Source of the DNA: Oleiharenicola lentus
Lineage (GTDB): Bacteria > Verrucomicrobiota > Verrucomicrobiia > Opitutales > Opitutaceae
DNA: 64,000 nt
Assembly (NCBI RefSeq): GCF_004118375.1
Contig: NZ_SDHX01000001.1
Coordinates: forward strand, 2,917,693-2,981,692
Reading direction: 5' to 3'
The translations under genes were made by a program, and so were the position numbers. The notes below the pieces were generated by a model. The model saw nothing but the letters and a program-made list of their open reading frames with translations, was not told where the DNA came from and did no database searches. Each line of letters opens with the position of its first letter. Position 1 is the stretch's first letter. Below, one piece after another: positions 52,155 through 58,844 of this stretch.

Positions 52155-52362
52155 GCCACGGATTGCACGGATGGGCACGGATTCAAGGCCAGCGGATTTT
52201 TGCCACGAAAAGGCACAAAAGGCTCCGCTCTGCTTCTTAAATCTTCCGCGCACCTATAGGCGCCTTGAGAGTCTCATTGTGGTCGATTTATTGAGCCTTT
52301 TTGTGGCCATCAAATGCCTTGGGCTTGTTCGGAATCCGTGCCCATCCGTTCCGTCCGTGGTC
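52155..52362. repeat. Nested inverted array (CACGGAT outside, CACGAAA inside)
   Basis: Two inverted repeat pairs, one inside the other: outer arms 52155-52184 and 52331-52362, inner arms 52197-52223 and 52293-52308. Units are of 9-10 bases. The inner pair belongs to the same family as 18378-18449. Confidence 0.8.
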
Positions 52363-52514: not shown

Positions 52515-54425
52515 ATGCAAAAATCCACCCTGCTGATGCTGCTCCCCTTCACCGCCCTCACCACCTTTGCCGCGACTTCGACGGCCAGCCTGAAACCCGC
52601 GACGCGCGTCCGGGCCGAGATCCCCGCCCAATACCGCTGGGATTTCTCGCCCATCTACGCCGACTGGGCCGCGTGGGAGGCCGGCATGAAGGAGATGGAG
52701 GGCAAGATGGACACGTTCGCCGCCCTCAAGGGCAGCCTCGCCACCGGTCCCGCCGCCGTGCTCAAGGCCTACAAGCTCTACGACGAGATCGGCATGCTCC
52801 AATACCGCGTCTATCGCTACCCGCAGCTCCAGCGCGACGTGGACACCCGCAACCAGGAGATCGCCGGCAAGTTCCAGCGGGTCGGCGTCATCTTCGCCAA
52901 GTTCGGCACCGCCACGGCCTGGTTCAACCCCGAGCTGCTCACCATCCCGCAGGCGAAGATGGAGGAGTGGATCAAGGCCACGCCCGAACTCGCCCCCTAC
53001 GCGTTCACCATCCTCGACACCTACCGCCAGCAGAAACACGTCCTCGATGAACAGGGCGAGAAGCTCCTTTCCTACGGCTCCCGCTTCAACTCGACCCCCG
53101 GCGCCATCTTCCAGGAACTCAGCACCTCCGACATCAAGTTCCCGGCCATCAAGCTCGCCGACGGCACGGAAGTGACCGTCTCGCCCGCCAACTACGGCCA
53201 CCTGCTCGAGACCAATTACAACCAGGCGGACCGCGCCGCGGCCTTCACCGCCCACCTCAACACCTACGCCGCCACGGCCAATACCTACGCCGCGATCTAC
53301 AACGCCATCCTCCAGCGCGGCTGGGCCAACGCCCAGGCCCGCAACTACCCGACCACCCTCGACGCCGCGCTCGACGGCAACGCCATCCCGCCCGCCGTCG
53401 TGCAGACGCTCGTGGACACCACCCGTGCCGGCACCGCCCCGCTCCAGCGCTACCTGCGCCTGCGCAAGAAGCTCCTCGGCCTGGAATCCTACCACCTCTA
53501 CGACGGTTCGGTCCCGCTCTTCAAGTCCGACGCCCGCTATCCCTACGACTCGGCCAAGGACACTGTCATCGCCTCCGTCGCCCCGCTTGGCGCCGACTAC
53601 ACGGCGAAATACCGCCAGTTCGTCTCCGGCGGCCGCATTGACGTCTATGAGAACGAGGGCAAGCGCAGCGGCGCCTATTGCGCCGGCGTCTATGGCGTCG
53701 GTCCCTACCTGTTGATGAACTACAACGACACGCAGGACGCCATGTTCACGCTCGCCCACGAAGCCGGCCACGCGATGCACACCGTGCTGTCCTACGAGAG
53801 CCAGCCCTTCGTCACTTCCAGCTACACCATCTTCGTCGCCGAGGTCGCCTCGACCACCAACGAACGTTTCCTCCTCAACCACCTGCTCGGCCAGACCTCC
53901 GACCCGAAGGAGCGCTTTCTCCTCCTCCAGCACGCGGTGGACTCCATCTTCCGCACCTTCTACACGCAGGTGCTCTTCGCCGACTTCGAGCTCCAGGCCC
54001 ACCGCCGCGTCGAGCAGGGCCAGCCCATCACCGCCGAGGTGCTCAATGGCATCTACCAGAAACTCCTCCAGGACTACTACGGCGACGCCGCCACGATCGA
54101 CGATCTCTACAAATACACCTGGGCCCGCATCCCGCACTTCTACAATTCGCCCTACTACGTCTATCAGTATGCGACCTGCTTCGCCTCGTCGGCCCAGCTC
54201 TTCAAGGCGATGAACACCGGCACGCCTGCCGAGCGCGCCGCCGCCACCGAGCGTTACCTCACCCTTCTGCGCAGCGGCGGCAACGACCACCCGATGAACC
54301 AGCTGCAGAAGGCCGGCGTGGACCTCACCAAGCGCGAGACCGTGCAGGCCGTCATCGACCAGATGAACGAACTCGTCTCCCAGCTCGAAATCGAAGCCGC
54401 CAAGATCGCCCCCGCGGCGAAGTGA
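52515..54425 (+). CDS. Exported oligoendopeptidase F-like M3 metallopeptidase
   Basis: 636-residue zinc peptidase of the M3 family. The zinc helix is HEAGH at residues 415-419 (TLAHEAGHAMHTVL), with the third ligand in AEVASTTNE about 25 residues later. N-terminal helices match PepF (DWAAWEAGMKEMEGKMDTF). Unlike typical cytoplasmic PepF it begins with a signal peptide (MQKSTLLMLLPFTALTTFA), so it probably acts in the periplasm on imported or secreted peptides. The ATG at 52515 is used. A terminator at 54520-54551 follows. Confidence 0.93.
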   Translation: MQKSTLLMLLPFTALTTFAATSTASLKPATRVRAEIPAQYRWDFSPIYADWAAWEAGMKEMEGKMDTFAALKGSLATGPAAVLKAYKLYDEIGMLQYRVYRYPQLQRDVDTRNQEIAGKFQRVGVIFAKFGTATAWFNPELLTIPQAKMEEWIKATPELAPYAFTILDTYRQQKHVLDEQGEKLLSYGSRFNSTPGAIFQELSTSDIKFPAIKLADGTEVTVSPANYGHLLETNYNQADRAAAFTAHLNTYAATANTYAAIYNAILQRGWANAQARNYPTTLDAALDGNAIPPAVVQTLVDTTRAGTAPLQRYLRLRKKLLGLESYHLYDGSVPLFKSDARYPYDSAKDTVIASVAPLGADYTAKYRQFVSGGRIDVYENEGKRSGAYCAGVYGVGPYLLMNYNDTQDAMFTLAHEAGHAMHTVLSYESQPFVTSSYTIFVAEVASTTNERFLLNHLLGQTSDPKERFLLLQHAVDSIFRTFYTQVLFADFELQAHRRVEQGQPITAEVLNGIYQKLLQDYYGDAATIDDLYKYTWARIPHFYNSPYYVYQYATCFASSAQLFKAMNTGTPAERAAATERYLTLLRSGGNDHPMNQLQKAGVDLTKRETVQAVIDQMNELVSQLEIEAAKIAPAAK

Positions 54426-54474
54426 GTCTTCCCCCGGAAGGCTGATAAAAAACGTCCATAGCTTTTAGACTTTT

Positions 54475-54513
54475 GTCATCGCGAGGCCCGCAAGTCGGGC
54501 CGTGGCGATCCAG
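54475..54513. repeat. GTCATCGCGAGG...GGCGATCCAG palindrome
   Basis: An inverted repeat around a GGCCCGCAAGTCGGGCC stem: GTCATCGCGAGGCCC and GGGCCGTGGCGATCCAG. It resembles a palindrome I recall from many bacterial genomes (GTCATTGCGAGG...GGCAATC); the link is from memory and unverified. Confidence 0.7.
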
Positions 54514-54519
54514 CTAGAC

Positions 54520-54551
54520 AAACCGGCCCACCCTCGGGCCGGTTTCTTTTT
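54520..54551 (+). terminator. Intrinsic terminator downstream of the M3 peptidase gene
   Basis: Perfect 10-bp stem AAACCGGCCC / GGGCCGGTTT with a six-base loop, followed by CTTTTT. It lies about 95 bases after the peptidase stop, past a separate palindrome. Confidence 0.88.
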
Positions 54552-54558
54552 GTATCGA

Positions 54559-54589
54559 GTAGCCGCCTTGGAGCGCAGCGACAAGGTGG
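54559..54589. repeat. GTAGCCGC...GGTGG hairpin, second copy
   Basis: 31-base hairpin that is the reverse complement of 41902-41932 with two differences. The differences fall on opposite stem arms (CCTTG/CAAGG here, CTTTG/CAAAG there), so the pairing is preserved. Confidence 0.85.
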
Positions 54590-54615
54590 CCTCTGGAAAA
54601 GCCCCGGAATTTGTG

Positions 54616-54816
54616 AACCACTGATGCACCGCCTAACGGCGCTGCTACTTGGTGCAGCTCCGCCTAATCGGCTCCGCCCCTGAGCTTCGGGGGCCGGCTA
54701 ATCACCGGCTGCCAGTATCTCCAGCGGCGATTAGCCGCTCCCCGGAACCCAAACCGGAGCCGATTAGGCGGAGGGGATCCAATCAGATTCGCCGTTGGCG
54801 AATCCCATTAGTGGTT
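54616..54816. repeat. AACCACTGAT...ATTAGTGGTT compound palindromic element, copy 1
   Basis: 201-base element bounded by AACCACTGAT and ATTAGTGGTT. Central stem 54658-54676 pairs perfectly over 19 bases with 54755-54773 (CTCCGCCTAATCGGCTCCG). Inside it are hairpins built from GCCGG and GCGGC stems. A terminal hairpin ATTCGCC-GTT-GGCGAAT (54787-54803) is shared with copy 2 at 58144-58342. Confidence 0.9.
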
Positions 54817-54907
54817 CACTTCTGCCTTTCCCTTCGCGCCTCTATGCTTTGGTGGTTCAACCGCCATAATCACCTTCACGCGTTGGACCAATTCACTGCT
54901 TTGGCCC

Positions 54908-54996
54908 CCTTTCGTGTCTTTGGTGTATTTCGTGGTTACTCCCCCTGCCTGCTTCCCTTCCGTGTGTTCCGCGTGTTCCGTGTGTTCCGTGGGCCA
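54908..54996. repeat. TTTCGTGTC / TTCCGTGTG nonamer arms
   Basis: 54908-54938 contains TTTCGTGTC, TTTGGTGTA, TTTCGTGG units. 54955-54996 contains four tandem nonamers (TTCCGTGTG, TTCCGCGTG, TTCCGTGTG, TTCCGTGGG), ending six bases before the stop codon of the luciferase-like gene. Confidence 0.78.
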
Positions 54997-55001
54997 TCCC
55001 C

Positions 55002-56030
55002 TCACCCCGTCTCGAGCTCCTTCCGCACCAGCGGCGCGACCTTCGTCCCGAGCAACACGATCGCCCGCATGATCTGCGCGTGCGTGAGCAGGCGGTTGTC
55101 GATCAGCACCGTCAGGCGGTCCAAGCCACCGAACCACCGGCTCTCCTGCACGATCTTCTCCGCCACGGCCTCGGGGCTGCCCACCAGCAACGCCCCCAGC
55201 TGACTGCACTGCGCGTCGAACTGCTCGCGCGTGGGCGCCGGCCAGCCGCGCTCGCGACCGATCCGGCCGAAGGCATCGCGGTAGGCGGGCCAGAAGGTCT
55301 CCGCCGCGTCCGACGTCGTGTCGGCCACGAAGCCGATGTTGTGGACGCCGACAAAGGCCTTCTCCGCCGGATGCCCCGCCTCCCGCCAGGTCGAGCGATA
55401 CAGGTCCACCAACGGACGAAACTGCCGCGGCGAGCCGCCGATGATGGCCACGATGAGCGGCAGCCCGAGCCTGGCCGCGCGCACGACCGACTCCGGCGTG
55501 CCGCCGACGCCGATGAACACCGGCAGCGGATGCTGCAGCGGACGCGGATACACACCCTGCCCGGTCAGCGCCGCGCGGTGCTGACCCGACCAATGGACCT
55601 TCACCTGATCGCGCACCTTGAGCAGCAGGTCGAGCTTCTCGGCCGCCAGCGCCTCGTAGTCGTCGAGATCGAAGCCAAAGAGCGGGTAGGATTCGATGAA
55701 CGAGCCGCGCCCCACGATGATCTCCGCCCGCCCCTGCGACACGAGGTCCACCGTGGCGAACTGCTGGAACACCCGCACCGGATCGTCGGAGCTGAGCACC
55801 GTCACCGCGCTGGCCAGCCGGATGCGCTTCGTCCGCGCCGCCGCCGCCGCCAGCAACACCGCCGGCGCCGAAGACACATAATCCGGCCGGTGGTGTTCGC
55901 CCACGCCGAAGACATCGAGCCCGACCTGATCGGCCAGCTCGATCTCCTCGAGCAGTTCCTGCACCCGCCGCGCATCCCCCGGAGGCCCCGGCTGCGCCGT
56001 CGCGACAAACGTATCCACGCCAATTTGCAT
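55002..56030 (-). CDS. LLM-class flavin-dependent oxidoreductase
   Basis: 342-residue TIM-barrel flavoprotein of the bacterial luciferase-like family. The start MQIGVDTFVATAQPG is typical, with VGEHHRPDYVSSAPAVLLAA, TVLSSDDPVRVFQQFATVDLVSQGRAE and VGRGSFIESYPLFG. The subgroup looks like the Atu2307/SP_0267-type proteins. It would use reduced FMN, possibly supplied by the FMN reductase elsewhere in the window; substrate is unknown. The start codon is ATG 56030. The stop sits next to the nonamer repeat. Confidence 0.9.
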   Translation of the reverse strand: MQIGVDTFVATAQPGPPGDARRVQELLEEIELADQVGLDVFGVGEHHRPDYVSSAPAVLLAAAAARTKRIRLASAVTVLSSDDPVRVFQQFATVDLVSQGRAEIIVGRGSFIESYPLFGFDLDDYEALAAEKLDLLLKVRDQVKVHWSGQHRAALTGQGVYPRPLQHPLPVFIGVGGTPESVVRAARLGLPLIVAIIGGSPRQFRPLVDLYRSTWREAGHPAEKAFVGVHNIGFVADTTSDAAETFWPAYRDAFGRIGRERGWPAPTREQFDAQCSQLGALLVGSPEAVAEKIVQESRWFGGLDRLTVLIDNRLLTHAQIMRAIVLLGTKVAPLVRKELETG

Positions 56031-56200
56031 CCGGGGGACATAGCCCTGCTTCCTCGAATTGGCCAGTCATCGCTTTGCCTGCTCCCGAGAATTGCCTGCG
56101 CTCGCGAATCCGAGATTGAAAACGAACAGCTTAACCTCCCTCATTTCTTCAAAAGACCAACTTACGCGTAAGCGGATCAACCCCGTCAGGGTAATGCCCT

Positions 56201-56464
56201 ATGTTTATGAGCAGAAAGGAGCAATTTGCACTGATGTTTTTGCTGACTCTCGCGCAGACCAGCACAGCGAACGCACACATGCCTCATGTCGAGCCATGGA
56301 AAAATGTGACAGCCGTTAGTGTAGCTGGAGTCGCAGCATTTGTTATCCCCTTTCTGCTTCGCAAGAGAGTGAATAATGGTTTCGTAATGCTGGTGATTGG
56401 AGTGCTAACGTTTATTATCCTCTCAGCCGGAGGATTGTTTTTTAGCTTTGTATCCTCTTTCTAA
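56201..56464 (+). CDS. Small membrane protein, unknown, AT-rich
   Basis: 87 residues with an N-terminal hydrophobic segment or signal (FALMFLLTLAQTSTANA) and two C-terminal hydrophobic helices (VSVAGVAAFVIPFLL and VMLVIGVLTFIILSAGGLFF). Base composition is visibly lower in GC than every neighbour, as is that of the 100 bases upstream, suggesting recent acquisition. ATG 56201 and ATG 56207 are both possible starts. I do not recognise the family and expression is not assured. Confidence 0.5.
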   Translation: MFMSRKEQFALMFLLTLAQTSTANAHMPHVEPWKNVTAVSVAGVAAFVIPFLLRKRVNNGFVMLVIGVLTFIILSAGGLFFSFVSSF

Positions 56465-56468
56465 GGCG

Positions 56469-56487
56469 AAAAGCCCCCGAAAGGGGC
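56469..56487 (-). terminator. Putative terminator of the AlkD-like gene
   Basis: Minus strand: stem GCCCC / GGGGC with a five-base loop and a following T4 run, eight bases past the alkD-like stop. A short, weak-looking but well placed hairpin. Confidence 0.6.
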
Positions 56488-56494
56488 ACATGCT

Positions 56495-57202
56495 TTACAT
56501 TTTACCTCGGAGCTTCGCGAACTCCCTTAGGGCTTCCCGGCCGATCCAATGGGCGGAGGCGGACTCGGATTCTGTGAGGCGCTTGGCCAGGGCGGTGCAA
56601 GCCTTGCGGAGGCCGGGGCTTTGGAGGCCGACCATACGCAGGGCCCAGCTCACGCCTTTCTTCACGAAGTTGCGCTCGTCGGTCGCGCCGCGCTCGATCA
56701 GGGGCAGGTAACGGAGGAATTTTTCGTCGGGGATGCCGTCGTTGTGCGCGGCCACGCAGGCGAGCAACACGTAGCCGGCGCGGCATTGGAACTCGCCCTT
56801 CAGCTTCGTCCACGGTTCGATGCGGTCCCACGCGTGCGGGCTCTGTTCGAAGAGTTTGAAGCACACCGTGTCCACCACGCCCCAGTTGTCGAAATCCCGG
56901 CACCAACGGTCCATGAGCCTCGGCGTGAGCCGGTCGGCCTCGCCCACGAACGACGCCAGCAGCCGCGCCTCATAGACGTCGGTCGCCCACAGCGCCTCGG
57001 CCAGCGCTTGGTTTTTGCCGAGCCGTTTGCCGAGCTTCTGGATCTCCCCCACGCCCACACCCCAGGCCTTGTCGTTGGGCAGACCGTAACGGGCCATGCC
57101 GTCGCGCACCTTCGCGCTGCTCAGGCGTTTCAGTTCGGCGAGGGCTTCCTTGGCCCCGGTGGCGGGGTCACCGGTGAACAGGGCTGGTTTCTTCGCGGGC
57201 AT
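56495..57202 (-). CDS. DNA alkylation repair protein (AlkD-like, HEAT-repeat)
   Basis: 235 residues of HEAT-like helices. The family-specific segments are present: WGVGVGEIQKLGKRLGK, then EARLLASFVGEADRLTPRLMDRWCRDFDNWGVVDTVC, in which the Trp and Asp of the AlkD active-site cleft can be recognised (FDNWGVVD). AlkD glycosylases remove N3- and N7-alkylated bases. The ATG at 57202 is chosen. It is monocistronic with a short terminator at 56469. Confidence 0.85.
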   Translation of the reverse strand: MPAKKPALFTGDPATGAKEALAELKRLSSAKVRDGMARYGLPNDKAWGVGVGEIQKLGKRLGKNQALAEALWATDVYEARLLASFVGEADRLTPRLMDRWCRDFDNWGVVDTVCFKLFEQSPHAWDRIEPWTKLKGEFQCRAGYVLLACVAAHNDGIPDEKFLRYLPLIERGATDERNFVKKGVSWALRMVGLQSPGLRKACTALAKRLTESESASAHWIGREALREFAKLRGKM

Positions 57203-57258
57203 GTTGGCTGTGATGCGATGAAATGCAGACCGAGCCAAGGCACTTTCAAGGCAGGTTA

Positions 57259-57312
57259 AACGCGGAGAGCGCGAAGGGCGCGGAGACGATCATTACCAAG
57301 GTCACCAAGGTG
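57259..57312. repeat. CGCGGAGAG and ACCAAGGTC nonamer units
   Basis: 57259-57288 has three 9-base units (CGCGGAGAG, CGCGAAGGG, CGCGGAGAC). 57291-57312 has two (ACCAAGGTC, ACCAAGGTG). A small single-orientation array in the 262-base gap upstream of the AlkD-like gene; otherwise that gap shows nothing recognisable. Confidence 0.65.
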
Positions 57313-57464
57313 GCTCGCGTTGCTCTCAACGCGTTGGGCAAGTCACATGCTCAAACCAGCGTCTTGGAGACAAGCCGCTCCACCTCGACCGAAGCGCTGC
57401 GGTTCAAATTCAGTGATTCTTGTGGCTTTTCCTGCCCAGGAGAGACGCTGCCGAGCGGGCTGCA

Positions 57465-57668
57465 TCAGGATGGGCCTACCACAGCACCCCCCGCTTCATC
57501 CCAGCCATCCTCGGCGGCCAGCTCGCGCACGCGGGTATCAATCTGCATCACGACGTCGGCCGCGTCGAGCCGACCCTGGCGTTCGAGGTCGTAGGCGAGG
57601 TCGGCCAGCTCGGTGCGCAGCCGGTCGAGCACGGTGGGCGCAGTGCAGACAGGAGAATCGGCGGGCAT
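57465..57668 (-). CDS. Small hypothetical protein
   Basis: 67 residues, mostly one helical stretch (RLRTELADLAYDLERQGRLDAADVVMQIDTRVRELAAEDGW). It follows the DUF1428 gene by 15 bases on the same strand, so it is likely part of one transcript. No recognisable domain. The acidic C-terminus and Leu/Arg-rich helix suggest a small helical partner protein; this is inference. Confidence 0.5.
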   Translation of the reverse strand: MPADSPVCTAPTVLDRLRTELADLAYDLERQGRLDAADVVMQIDTRVRELAAEDGWDEAGGAVVGPS

Positions 57669-57683
57669 GGCGGGCGAATCGGG

Positions 57684-58055
57684 TCAGCCGGAGACCAGCA
57701 CGTTGAAGCCGCCGAAGGTCATGCGGGCCATGTCGAAGGGCATCTTCTGCGGATCGCACATCGCGGCGAGACGGGAATCGGCCATGACCTTGGCGTTGAC
57801 GCGGTCGCGGTGCGCACGGGAGCGGTAGCGGATGTAGGCGAAGACGACCGTCTCGGTCGGCTTGGTCTTGGCGAGTTTCTTGAACAGATCGCCGGGCACG
57901 CCCTTGGGTTGCGGCGAGGGGTCCATAACGCACTCCTGGTAGTCGAGTGCGCCGTGTTCGCGCCAAACCTTTGCGGCCTGGGTCGCGATCTTCTTGTAGA
58001 GCGCGAGTTTCTTGCGGGGGAGCGGGATGACAAATCCGTCAACATATTGGGCCAT
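57684..58055 (-). CDS. DUF1428 (YbaA-like) family protein
   Basis: 123 residues with a ferredoxin-like dimeric alpha/beta barrel pattern: YVDGFVIPLPRKKLALYKKIA, CVMDPSPQPKGVP, then VVFAYIRYRSRAHRDRVNAKVM and MPFDMARMTFGGFNVLV. These match the DUF1428 family, whose function is unknown. Start ATG at 58055. It heads a two-gene unit with the small ORF downstream. Confidence 0.88.
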   Translation of the reverse strand: MAQYVDGFVIPLPRKKLALYKKIATQAAKVWREHGALDYQECVMDPSPQPKGVPGDLFKKLAKTKPTETVVFAYIRYRSRAHRDRVNAKVMADSRLAAMCDPQKMPFDMARMTFGGFNVLVSG

Positions 58056-58430
58056 GGGGGGAGTCTCCTTGGGAATGGGTGGATGAGGGGTGGTTCAATC
58101 CCTCAACGAACGACCCGAACGCTTCCGGACACCGAGTTTGAGGAACCACTGATCAATTCCGCCAACGGCGGAATTTTAAGAATCCCCTCCGGCTAATCGC
58201 CTCCGTGATTGGTTCAAGGGGCCCGCTTATCGCGGGCATTTGATCCCGGTCTGCGATAAGCAGACCCCGCAGCTACTACCCCGAAGGCGATTAGCCGGAG
58301 GGCACACCGGAGATTCGCCTTTGGCGAATCTCATTAGTGGTTACCTCTAATCCGAAAAACCACCCAAACTCTGTCCTTCCGGCATGGGGCGCTTCGTCGT
58401 AGCCTGTGAACACCCAACCCTCTTCCCGTC
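58056..58430. other. 375-base intergenic region holding the second compound palindrome
   Basis: Divergent gap between the DUF1428 and YciI genes. Beyond the AACCACTGAT element (58144-58342) it holds only unremarkable sequence. Promoters for both genes are expected in the flanks but none could be read with confidence. Confidence 0.7.
58144..58342. repeat. AACCACTGAT...ATTAGTGGTT compound palindromic element, copy 2
   Basis: 199-base element with the same bounding sequences as copy 1. Hairpin AATTCCGCC-AAC-GGCGGAATT (58155-58175). The central stem CCCTCCGGCTAATCGCC (58185-58201) pairs perfectly with 58286-58302 and encloses CCCGC/GCGGG and GGTCTGC/GCAGACC (58248-58266) hairpins. A terminal hairpin GATTCGCC-TTT-GGCGAATC lies at 58312-58330. 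Confidence 0.9.
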
Positions 58431-58844
58431 ATGAGCACGTCCCCCGCCCCCGCTTCCACGCCGTTCATGCTGATCTTCCGCAACACCGGCGCGGAGAACT
58501 ACCGGCACCTTTCCGCCAGCCAGCAACAGGAACTGGTCGGACGCTGGAACGCTTGGTTCGAGAACCTCGTCAACCAGGGCAAGGCGACCATCGGCCAGCC
58601 CCTCGAAGATGCCACGCGGATTGTCGCGGGCCCCGGCGGCGCGCGCATCGTGGACGGCCCCTTTCCCGAGACCAAGGAAGCCGTTGGCGGCTTCGTGACC
58701 CTGCAGGTCAGCGGCCTCGCCGAAGCCACCGCCATCGCCCAGCGCCACCCCGGCCTCGACTACGGCATGCTGATCGAGGTCCGCGAGATGACCCCGCACT
58801 GCCACCTCGGCGTGAATACCAAGAGCGTGCCCGCCACGGCCTGA
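58431..58844 (+). CDS. YciI (DGPF) family protein next to ECF sigma factor
   Basis: 137 residues: FMLIFRNTGAENYRHLSASQQQ at the start, the VDGPFPETKEAVGGFVTLQ core and LIEVREMTPH near the end. These define the DGPF/YCII-related family that accompanies ECF42-type sigma factors in many genomes. The sigma gene begins eight bases after its stop, which supports a functional pair; how the small protein influences the sigma factor is not established. Start ATG 58431. Confidence 0.9.
   Translation: MSTSPAPASTPFMLIFRNTGAENYRHLSASQQQELVGRWNAWFENLVNQGKATIGQPLEDATRIVAGPGGARIVDGPFPETKEAVGGFVTLQVSGLAEATAIAQRHPGLDYGMLIEVREMTPHCHLGVNTKSVPATA

Follow-up and report, generated by a model that had tools for sequence, protein, structure and literature searches.

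Among described systems, those closest to the repeat reported here are the REP and REPIN repeats. In the portion of PMC3733652 available to us, REPs appear as single hairpins of 20-40 bp, the GTAG and CGTC repeat families are described together with dimers that have structured spacers and with palindromic terminal inverted repeats (TIRs), and Opitutus terrae, a member of the Verrucomicrobia, is rich in GTAG repeats. Recognition of REP hairpins by TnpA-REP, in single-stranded or cruciform DNA, is proposed in the corresponding portion of PMC8266576. The object of this work is a hairpin repeat of about 97 nt in Oleiharenicola lentus, two inverted dimers of which, named E5 and E6, lie in a stretch of 64,000 nucleotides (hereafter the window) at C1:2917693-2981692. 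The genome as a whole (own genome, labelled G000) measures 4.71 Mb and is divided between two contigs, C1 and C2. The repeat is real, dispersed and structurally constrained, and it is probably mobile. Taken as a whole, the evidence leads us to prefer, by a little, the view that it is a non-autonomous, hairpin-recognised interspersed mobile repeat, which our searches place in a single family of Opitutia (Verrucomicrobiota).

The likeness to REP and REPIN repeats, as far as the above portion of PMC3733652 covers them, extends to short, gene-free intergenic hairpins, to single and inverted-dimer forms with variable spacers and to sub-families with complementary stem changes; by analogy, the relation between single units and dimers is the strongest parallel. 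Unlike a REP, with its one hairpin, the unit described here has three, ends in AACCAC, occurs in at least nine copies in its own genome and has no linked Y1 transposase among 49 loci. The branched shape, which an earlier note on this DNA had set apart from a plain REP hairpin, is upheld. With TIRtrons and the double-palindromic terminal repeats of RAYT-like genes, described in the same portion, the repeat shares a palindromic structure beyond that of plain REPs, self-complementarity in some cases and dispersal; those repeats flank a Y1 gene, whereas no copy is found here at any of the 49 Y1 loci. The bacterial miniature inverted-repeat transposable elements (MITEs) ERIC, NEMIS, RUP and Nezha, again as presented there, are similar in their length of 70-300 bp, terminal inverted repeats, position near genes and ability to fold; unlike them, the present repeat has single-ended units and conserved inner hairpins, and no related insertion sequence (IS) or consistent target duplication was found.

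The tetranucleotide GTAG adjoins about 12 of 62 terminal hairpins (7 among the 51 scored by program and, by eye, about 5 among the 11 unscored), and AA precedes the stem in 28 of the 44 scored ones that have no GTAG. Since neither a constant GTAG tag nor a linked transposase (49 loci) was found, the repeat is not classed as a GTAG REP. The comparison with the O. terrae families covers their description in the text of PMC3733652, rather than the consensus sequences of its Figure 1, and the repeat may overlap with one of these families. No title or abstract among the literature matches listed, in a coverage outside the subscription literature, describes the repeat family, and PMC12306157 contains no occurrence of Verrucomicrobi, Opitut, Planctomycet or TAATC.

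Two inverted dimers and a three-hairpin unit

The earlier note had described two palindromic elements in the window, and both are borne out: E5 (54616..54816, 201 bp) and E6 (58144..58342, 199 bp), neither of which, like their ends and arms, is assigned to a strand. They have in common the 10-bp ends (AACCACTGAT at 54616..54625 and 58144..58153, ATTAGTGGTT at 54807..54816 and 58333..58342), the hairpin ATTCGCC/GGCGAAT at the right end and, between the ends, a long inverted repeat that encloses a pair of small hairpins. As single-stranded DNA, E5 folds at -63.4 kcal/mol versus a shuffle mean of -36.0 (z -8.25) and E6 at -60.2 versus -30.5 kcal/mol (z -9.80), none of 200 dinucleotide shuffles being as stable in either case. 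The shared structure does not reach the left terminal hairpins, which are unlike the right ones and also unlike each other, and the perfect pairing ascribed to the central stem of both copies is true of the 15-nt arms but not of the full 19-bp stem, which has one mismatch in E6 (CGAAGG). The two copies have diverged, the best inverted match between them being 91 nt at 71% complementarity.

Each dimer consists of two units in opposite orientation, all four of which match the half-element covariance model R1; as R1 was built from E5, E6 and other copies, these matches are by construction. Specifically, the left unit of E5 (terminal end, H1, H2 and H3) spans 54616..54709 on the plus strand (64.3 bits) and its right unit (terminal end, H6, H5 and H4, in reverse orientation) 54723..54816 on the minus strand (94.2 bits), while in E6 the left unit occupies 58144..58237 on the plus strand (98.9 bits) and the reversed right unit 58249..58342 on the minus strand (86.3 bits). 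The basic unit starts with the terminal AACC(A/G)CTRAT, followed by H1, with a mostly perfect 9-bp stem and a loop of 3-4 nt, by H2, of the form GNC-TRATC-GNC, by a G-rich box and by H3, whose TRATC loop is closed by a longer stem. Half-elements can be aligned with one another over their full length. In the own genome and in most carriers, two inverted units produce a six-hairpin palindrome of about 200 bp, with terminal hairpins (H1 and H6) that show many stem types and a perfect stem of 9-10 bp in 46 of 62 cases.

Dimers are also found in genomes G218 (two copies), G015 and G013. In two other genera, represented by G024 and G096, the copies are single units with no mirrored partner, searched for at E values up to 0.5 in about 0.7 kb on each side; this holds for the 13 copies inspected in G024, where at least 18 were matched, and for one copy in G096. 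Upstream of these units a run of T and the sequence GGAGGACGGA are common, the latter without any change in 4 of 14 and in a similar form in others. By eye, H2 and H3 both read GGCC-AAT-GGCC in four G024 copies, seven single units carry the TRATC form in both hairpins, two are mixed (one of them in G096) and one is unclear.

Covariation in the local hairpins and in the long stem

In E5, the left arm of the long stem, CTCCGCCTAATCGGCTCCG (54658..54676), contains the local hairpin H2, GCC-TAATC-GGC, and the right arm, CGGAGCCGATTAGGCGGAG (54755..54773), the local hairpin H5, GCC-GATTA-GGC; in E6, the corresponding arms are CTCCGGCTAATCGCCTCCG (58187..58205), with H2 as GGC-TAATC-GCC, and CGAAGGCGATTAGCCGGAG (58282..58300), with H5 as GGC-GATTA-GCC. 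The earlier note had read the differences between the two copies as two independent compensations across the central stem, indicating selection on, or mobilisation through, the folded form. The changes, C to G and G to C in CTCCGCCTAATCGGC and CTCCGGCTAATCGCC, are instead the two sides of the small hairpin within each arm (GCC-TAATC-GGC versus GGC-TAATC-GCC) and hence do not count as two separate compensatory events between the arms of the long stem. Compensatory change does exist, but within the local hairpins.

This assignment is based on an alignment of 31 full-length copies in a common orientation, on which local and long-stem pairing were both measured; the other 20 of 51 regions (truncated, insert-bearing or chimeric copies and further near-identical copies of G013) were left out. 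At each of the two positions in question, Watson-Crick pairing across the stem is seen in 16 of 31 copies, in contrast with 30 of 31 for the left within-arm partners (AT 13, GC 11, CG 6) and 28 of 31 for the right ones (GC 17, CG 9, AT 2). Outside the hairpin cores, the long stem is paired in 205 of 310 cells, and in 10 of the 31 copies (for example L100, L113, L118 and L120) the left arm forms its own hairpin of 7-8 bp and the outer long stem pairs at no more than 5 of 10 positions. Upon removal of one further G013 row, the four inner hairpins of the remaining 30 copies show a covariation of 0.325 versus 0.089 in shuffled alignments, with 68 cells changed on both sides; for the long stem the values are 0.120 versus 0.091, with 17 double-changed cells, a result above 500 of 500 shuffles by a small margin. 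Among 60 half-elements, the covariation of the three local hairpins reaches 0.410, as opposed to 0.158±0.009 when shuffled and at most 0.118 when the pairing is slid. Two column pairs show four pair types each, namely 54:62 (GC 26, AU 15, CG 15, GU 3) and 86:100 (CG 30, UA 21, GC 8, AU 1), and three of the four outer pairs assigned to H2 are unpaired in most of the 60 halves. In other words, the covarying pairs lie in small local hairpins and the long stem covaries little. Selection on the long stem is rejected as the main constraint in view of the cross-stem pairing in only 16 of 31 copies, of its weak covariation and of its loss, for the most part, in 10 of 31. The case shows how an alignment of many copies may be needed before a striking compensation between two of them is placed in the right helix.

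Paired changes could also arise mechanically, by polymerase template switching in quasi-palindromes, which copies one arm onto the other (a process of the kind presented in the available portion of PMC8794818) and leaves paired changes that do not reflect selection on the fold. The short-loop hairpins H1 and H6, with their many types and frequent perfect stems, look like good substrates, and H2 has become a local hairpin of 7-8 bp in the 10 copies mentioned above. The most informative H2 pair, in contrast, belongs to a hairpin of just 3 bp, with no pairing at the adjacent position in 49 of 60 halves; such a stem probably lacks the length that templating needs to be efficient, and the pair is nevertheless formed in 59 of 60 halves with four types. 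Moreover, orthologous copies display, by eye, mismatched or wobble states. We regard template switching as a very improbable explanation of the compensations.

Dispersal, genomic context and the search for an enzyme

Further copies are found in the own genome and beyond it. With E5 as query, 15 BLAST matches correspond, by their ends, to eight elements in the own genome: C1 135577 (right end decayed), 548585-548780, 859912-860179, 1059663-1059867, 1683578-1683796, 2972308-2972508 (E5 itself) and 2975836-2976034 (E6), and C2 751542-751738. A ninth copy, whose right end has likewise decayed, begins at C1 1181878. E6 as query gives matches in 14 of 57 genomes, the own included (13 of 56 relatives), and in 4 of 37 genera, and a pattern scan of genome contigs retrieved five stretches, all from Opitutia or Verrucomicrobia bacteria. 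In a class-wide search with R1, 8 of 236 genomes were matched, all of them in the taxonomic family of O. lentus, of which 16 other listed genomes gave no match; as strict filters were applied and at most 18 candidates were scored per genome, the class-wide numbers are minimum values, and weakly similar repeats in other genomes may have escaped the search. In G013 the repeat occupies fourteen places in different flanks, and thirteen of these copies, including three truncated or chimeric ones, resemble one another closely enough to form one type.

Some copies are associated with further sequences. In G013 (L085-L098), most copies lie within an outer palindromic shell, AGGGAGTGTCTTCAAACC...GAAAACACTCCCT; by eye, TA is found on both sides in 4 of the 9 shells that have both ends, and two shells lie in the terminal ATTAGTGGT of apparent short elements. 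An insert of about 60 bp with its own hairpins sits in the loop of an inner hairpin at C1:859993-860053, 1181991-1182051 and 135660-135720 and, by eye in the same hairpin, in L110 of G012; elsewhere in the own genome, it is matched by a single fragment of 28 bp.

Comparison of orthologous junctions points to gain or loss of copies. The divergent junction of E6, next to a gene which we take to be DUF1428, measures 375 bp in the own genome versus 169 bp, with no element, in G003, where the orthologue of that gene is 86% identical and has the same divergent neighbour. At a second junction, beside a gene that is presumably xdhC, nine of ten strong matches were compared: a copy is present in G000, G020 (86% protein identity) and G012 (73%) and absent in G003 (79%), G013, G006 and G008, while the upstream context is different in G009 and G016. 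The orthologous copies are 77-80% identical, that is, at 151 of 196 positions between G000 and G012 and at 127 of 159 between G000 and G020, whose left part is missing. By eye, they have two-sided changes in H4 (G000 versus G020) and in H6 (G000 versus G012 and G020), and wobbles or mismatches are also seen in H1, H3 and H4. The flanks of the empty junctions are too diverged to be aligned, and a base-exact insertion site was therefore not obtained from them. By eye, TTAA is present on both sides of the own copies at 859912, 1059663 and 1683578, but not of E5, E6 or C2 751542.

From the dispersal of the repeat, the near-identity of the G013 copies and the empty sites, we infer enzyme-driven movement. 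A trans-acting enzyme would recognise both the AACCAC end and, in single-stranded or cruciform DNA, the small hairpins, and would place copies of the element in further intergenic regions. The hairpins would stay paired through selection for such recognition, and the long central stem would be largely a by-product of two inverted units. Mobilisation through the folded form, one of the possibilities raised in the earlier note, is a plausible route; the suggested link to RAYT or IS200-type enzymes was not found at the 49 Y1 loci scanned.

Several observations weigh against a mobile, hairpin-recognised repeat. Among 49 Y1_Tnp loci (4 own and 45 of relatives, with flanks up to 1.5 kb), drawn from 101 Y1 matches in 18 genomes, none carries a copy, the remaining 52 matches lying outside the scan; the genomes comprised all 16 carriers tested and also G003 and G011, which have no repeat match. 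In no case were two units observed on either side of a gene, and the flanks, which in some own copies extend the palindrome, yielded no consistent target-site duplication. The number of pair types in the inner hairpins is no higher than in shuffled alignments (17 versus 17.7; 400 of 500 shuffles, 30 copies), and the shuffle controls overstate the significance of the covariation, since the copies are related. In addition, replication errors templated by hairpins are able to mimic compensation. Finally, the empty sites of G003 may reflect loss as well as never having had copies, and the retention of one copy in three species may also fit a fixed, useful element.

A weak Y1 match in G024 lies about 2 kb from a unit; since the surrounding 7 kb contains just that unit (E up to 0.5), this proximity is treated as incidental. 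At 56475-56517, the window contains a single sequence resembling the terminal repeat GGGGTCATGCTTTACCTTTTACC that flanks the Y1_Tnp gene of L016 on both sides.

It is also conceivable, if unlikely, that the repeat is an ordinary MITE, whose 10-bp AACCAC.../...GTGGTT ends are cut by the DDE transposase of a lost or unrecognised IS and whose inner hairpins are passengers. Terminal inverted repeats are indeed kept in the 30 copies, with pairing in 89.7% of cells and a weak covariation of 0.124 versus 0.085, and AACCACTRAT, which has 37 exact sites in the own genome while the reversed pattern has 1, is at the same time the end of another, shorter class of elements. In the own genome, the inward pairs of these sites at kilobase distance are the ends of separate complete elements, a reading made on the pairs and not extended to a transposase search of the intervening genes. 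The strongest covariation, however, is found in the inner hairpins and not in the ends, terminal inverted repeats are not a feature of the single units of G024 and G096, which have just one end, and a consistent target duplication, as said, was not seen.

The genomic context bears on a further explanation, already contemplated in the earlier note and here retained as a rival that we consider quite unlikely, i.e. that the repeat is a transcribed structured element (an operon-junction RNA, mRNA stabiliser or attenuator) held by selection on RNA. Covariation of the local hairpins is compatible with it, several copies fill tight gene junctions, a copy is present at the xdhC junction in three species and, among 44 copies scorable with simple open reading frame calls, 21 lie between co-directional genes. 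Against it, 16 of the same 44 have convergent neighbours and 7 have divergent ones (a further 4 being at contig edges and 3 of the 51 regions left out), and copies are present or absent at orthologous sites. The 14 single units also show mixed orientation relative to neighbouring genes, and these mixed contexts and orientations argue against one fixed regulatory role. Moreover, mispairs are rare in the stems and G-T is not much commoner than A-C (25 versus 12 of 1078 cells), so that RNA is not favoured. In the window, Rfam 15 gives no match above the gathering score, and in the region 54300-58700 none of seven terminator-like sites (4.1±2.4 in shuffles) falls inside an element and no promoter-like site was found.

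The end sequence and its heptamer arrays

The second, shorter palindromic class of the own genome shares the end AACCACTAAT and consists of three CACTAAT-like heptamers with a period of about 10 bp, a loop and three inverted heptamers. Its members lie outside the window, for example at C1:240270-240356, 356143-356214 and 2207589-2207661 and at C2:22016-22099 and 442221-442296, and 13 of 15 scored ones are between co-directional genes, most of them nearly filling the junction. A degenerate form, AACCNCNRATNNNCNCNRAT, is frequent in 36 of 57 genomes (the own and its relatives), with 0-1 occurrences of the reversed-pattern control per genome and strand, and comes in different flavours (CACGAAT, CACGGAT, CACAGAT and others). 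At the orthologous junction upstream of P0002 orthologues (L219-L231; 12 of 14 strong matches), species differ in flavour or have none. The window itself contains heptamer arrays of the CACGAAA/CACGGAA and CACGGAT types at 54911-54991 on the minus strand, close to E5, and at 52157-52181 on the plus strand. In the available portion of PMC4679880, the TAACTGA heptamer arrays of Beggiatoaceae resemble the CACTAAT arrays of the own genome in being repeated heptamers close upstream of start codons; they differ in that they are direct repeats, with a single inverted case, and in their sequence, and they are not the 200-bp elements. Of five strings taken from the heptamer arrays, one recurs in a single paper among the literature matches listed.

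A bolder proposal, for which the odds are rather long, is that the three-hairpin repeat is a distinct kind of hairpin-recognised mobile repeat, served by an enzyme that belongs neither to the RAYTs nor to the known IS transposases. As its AACCAC end is shared with heptamer arrays found throughout the family, one trans-acting machine may then shape intergenic DNA family-wide. Single units, dimers, orthologous copies and empty sites together constitute a comparative data set on the origin and spread of REP-like repeats that have no transposase next to them.

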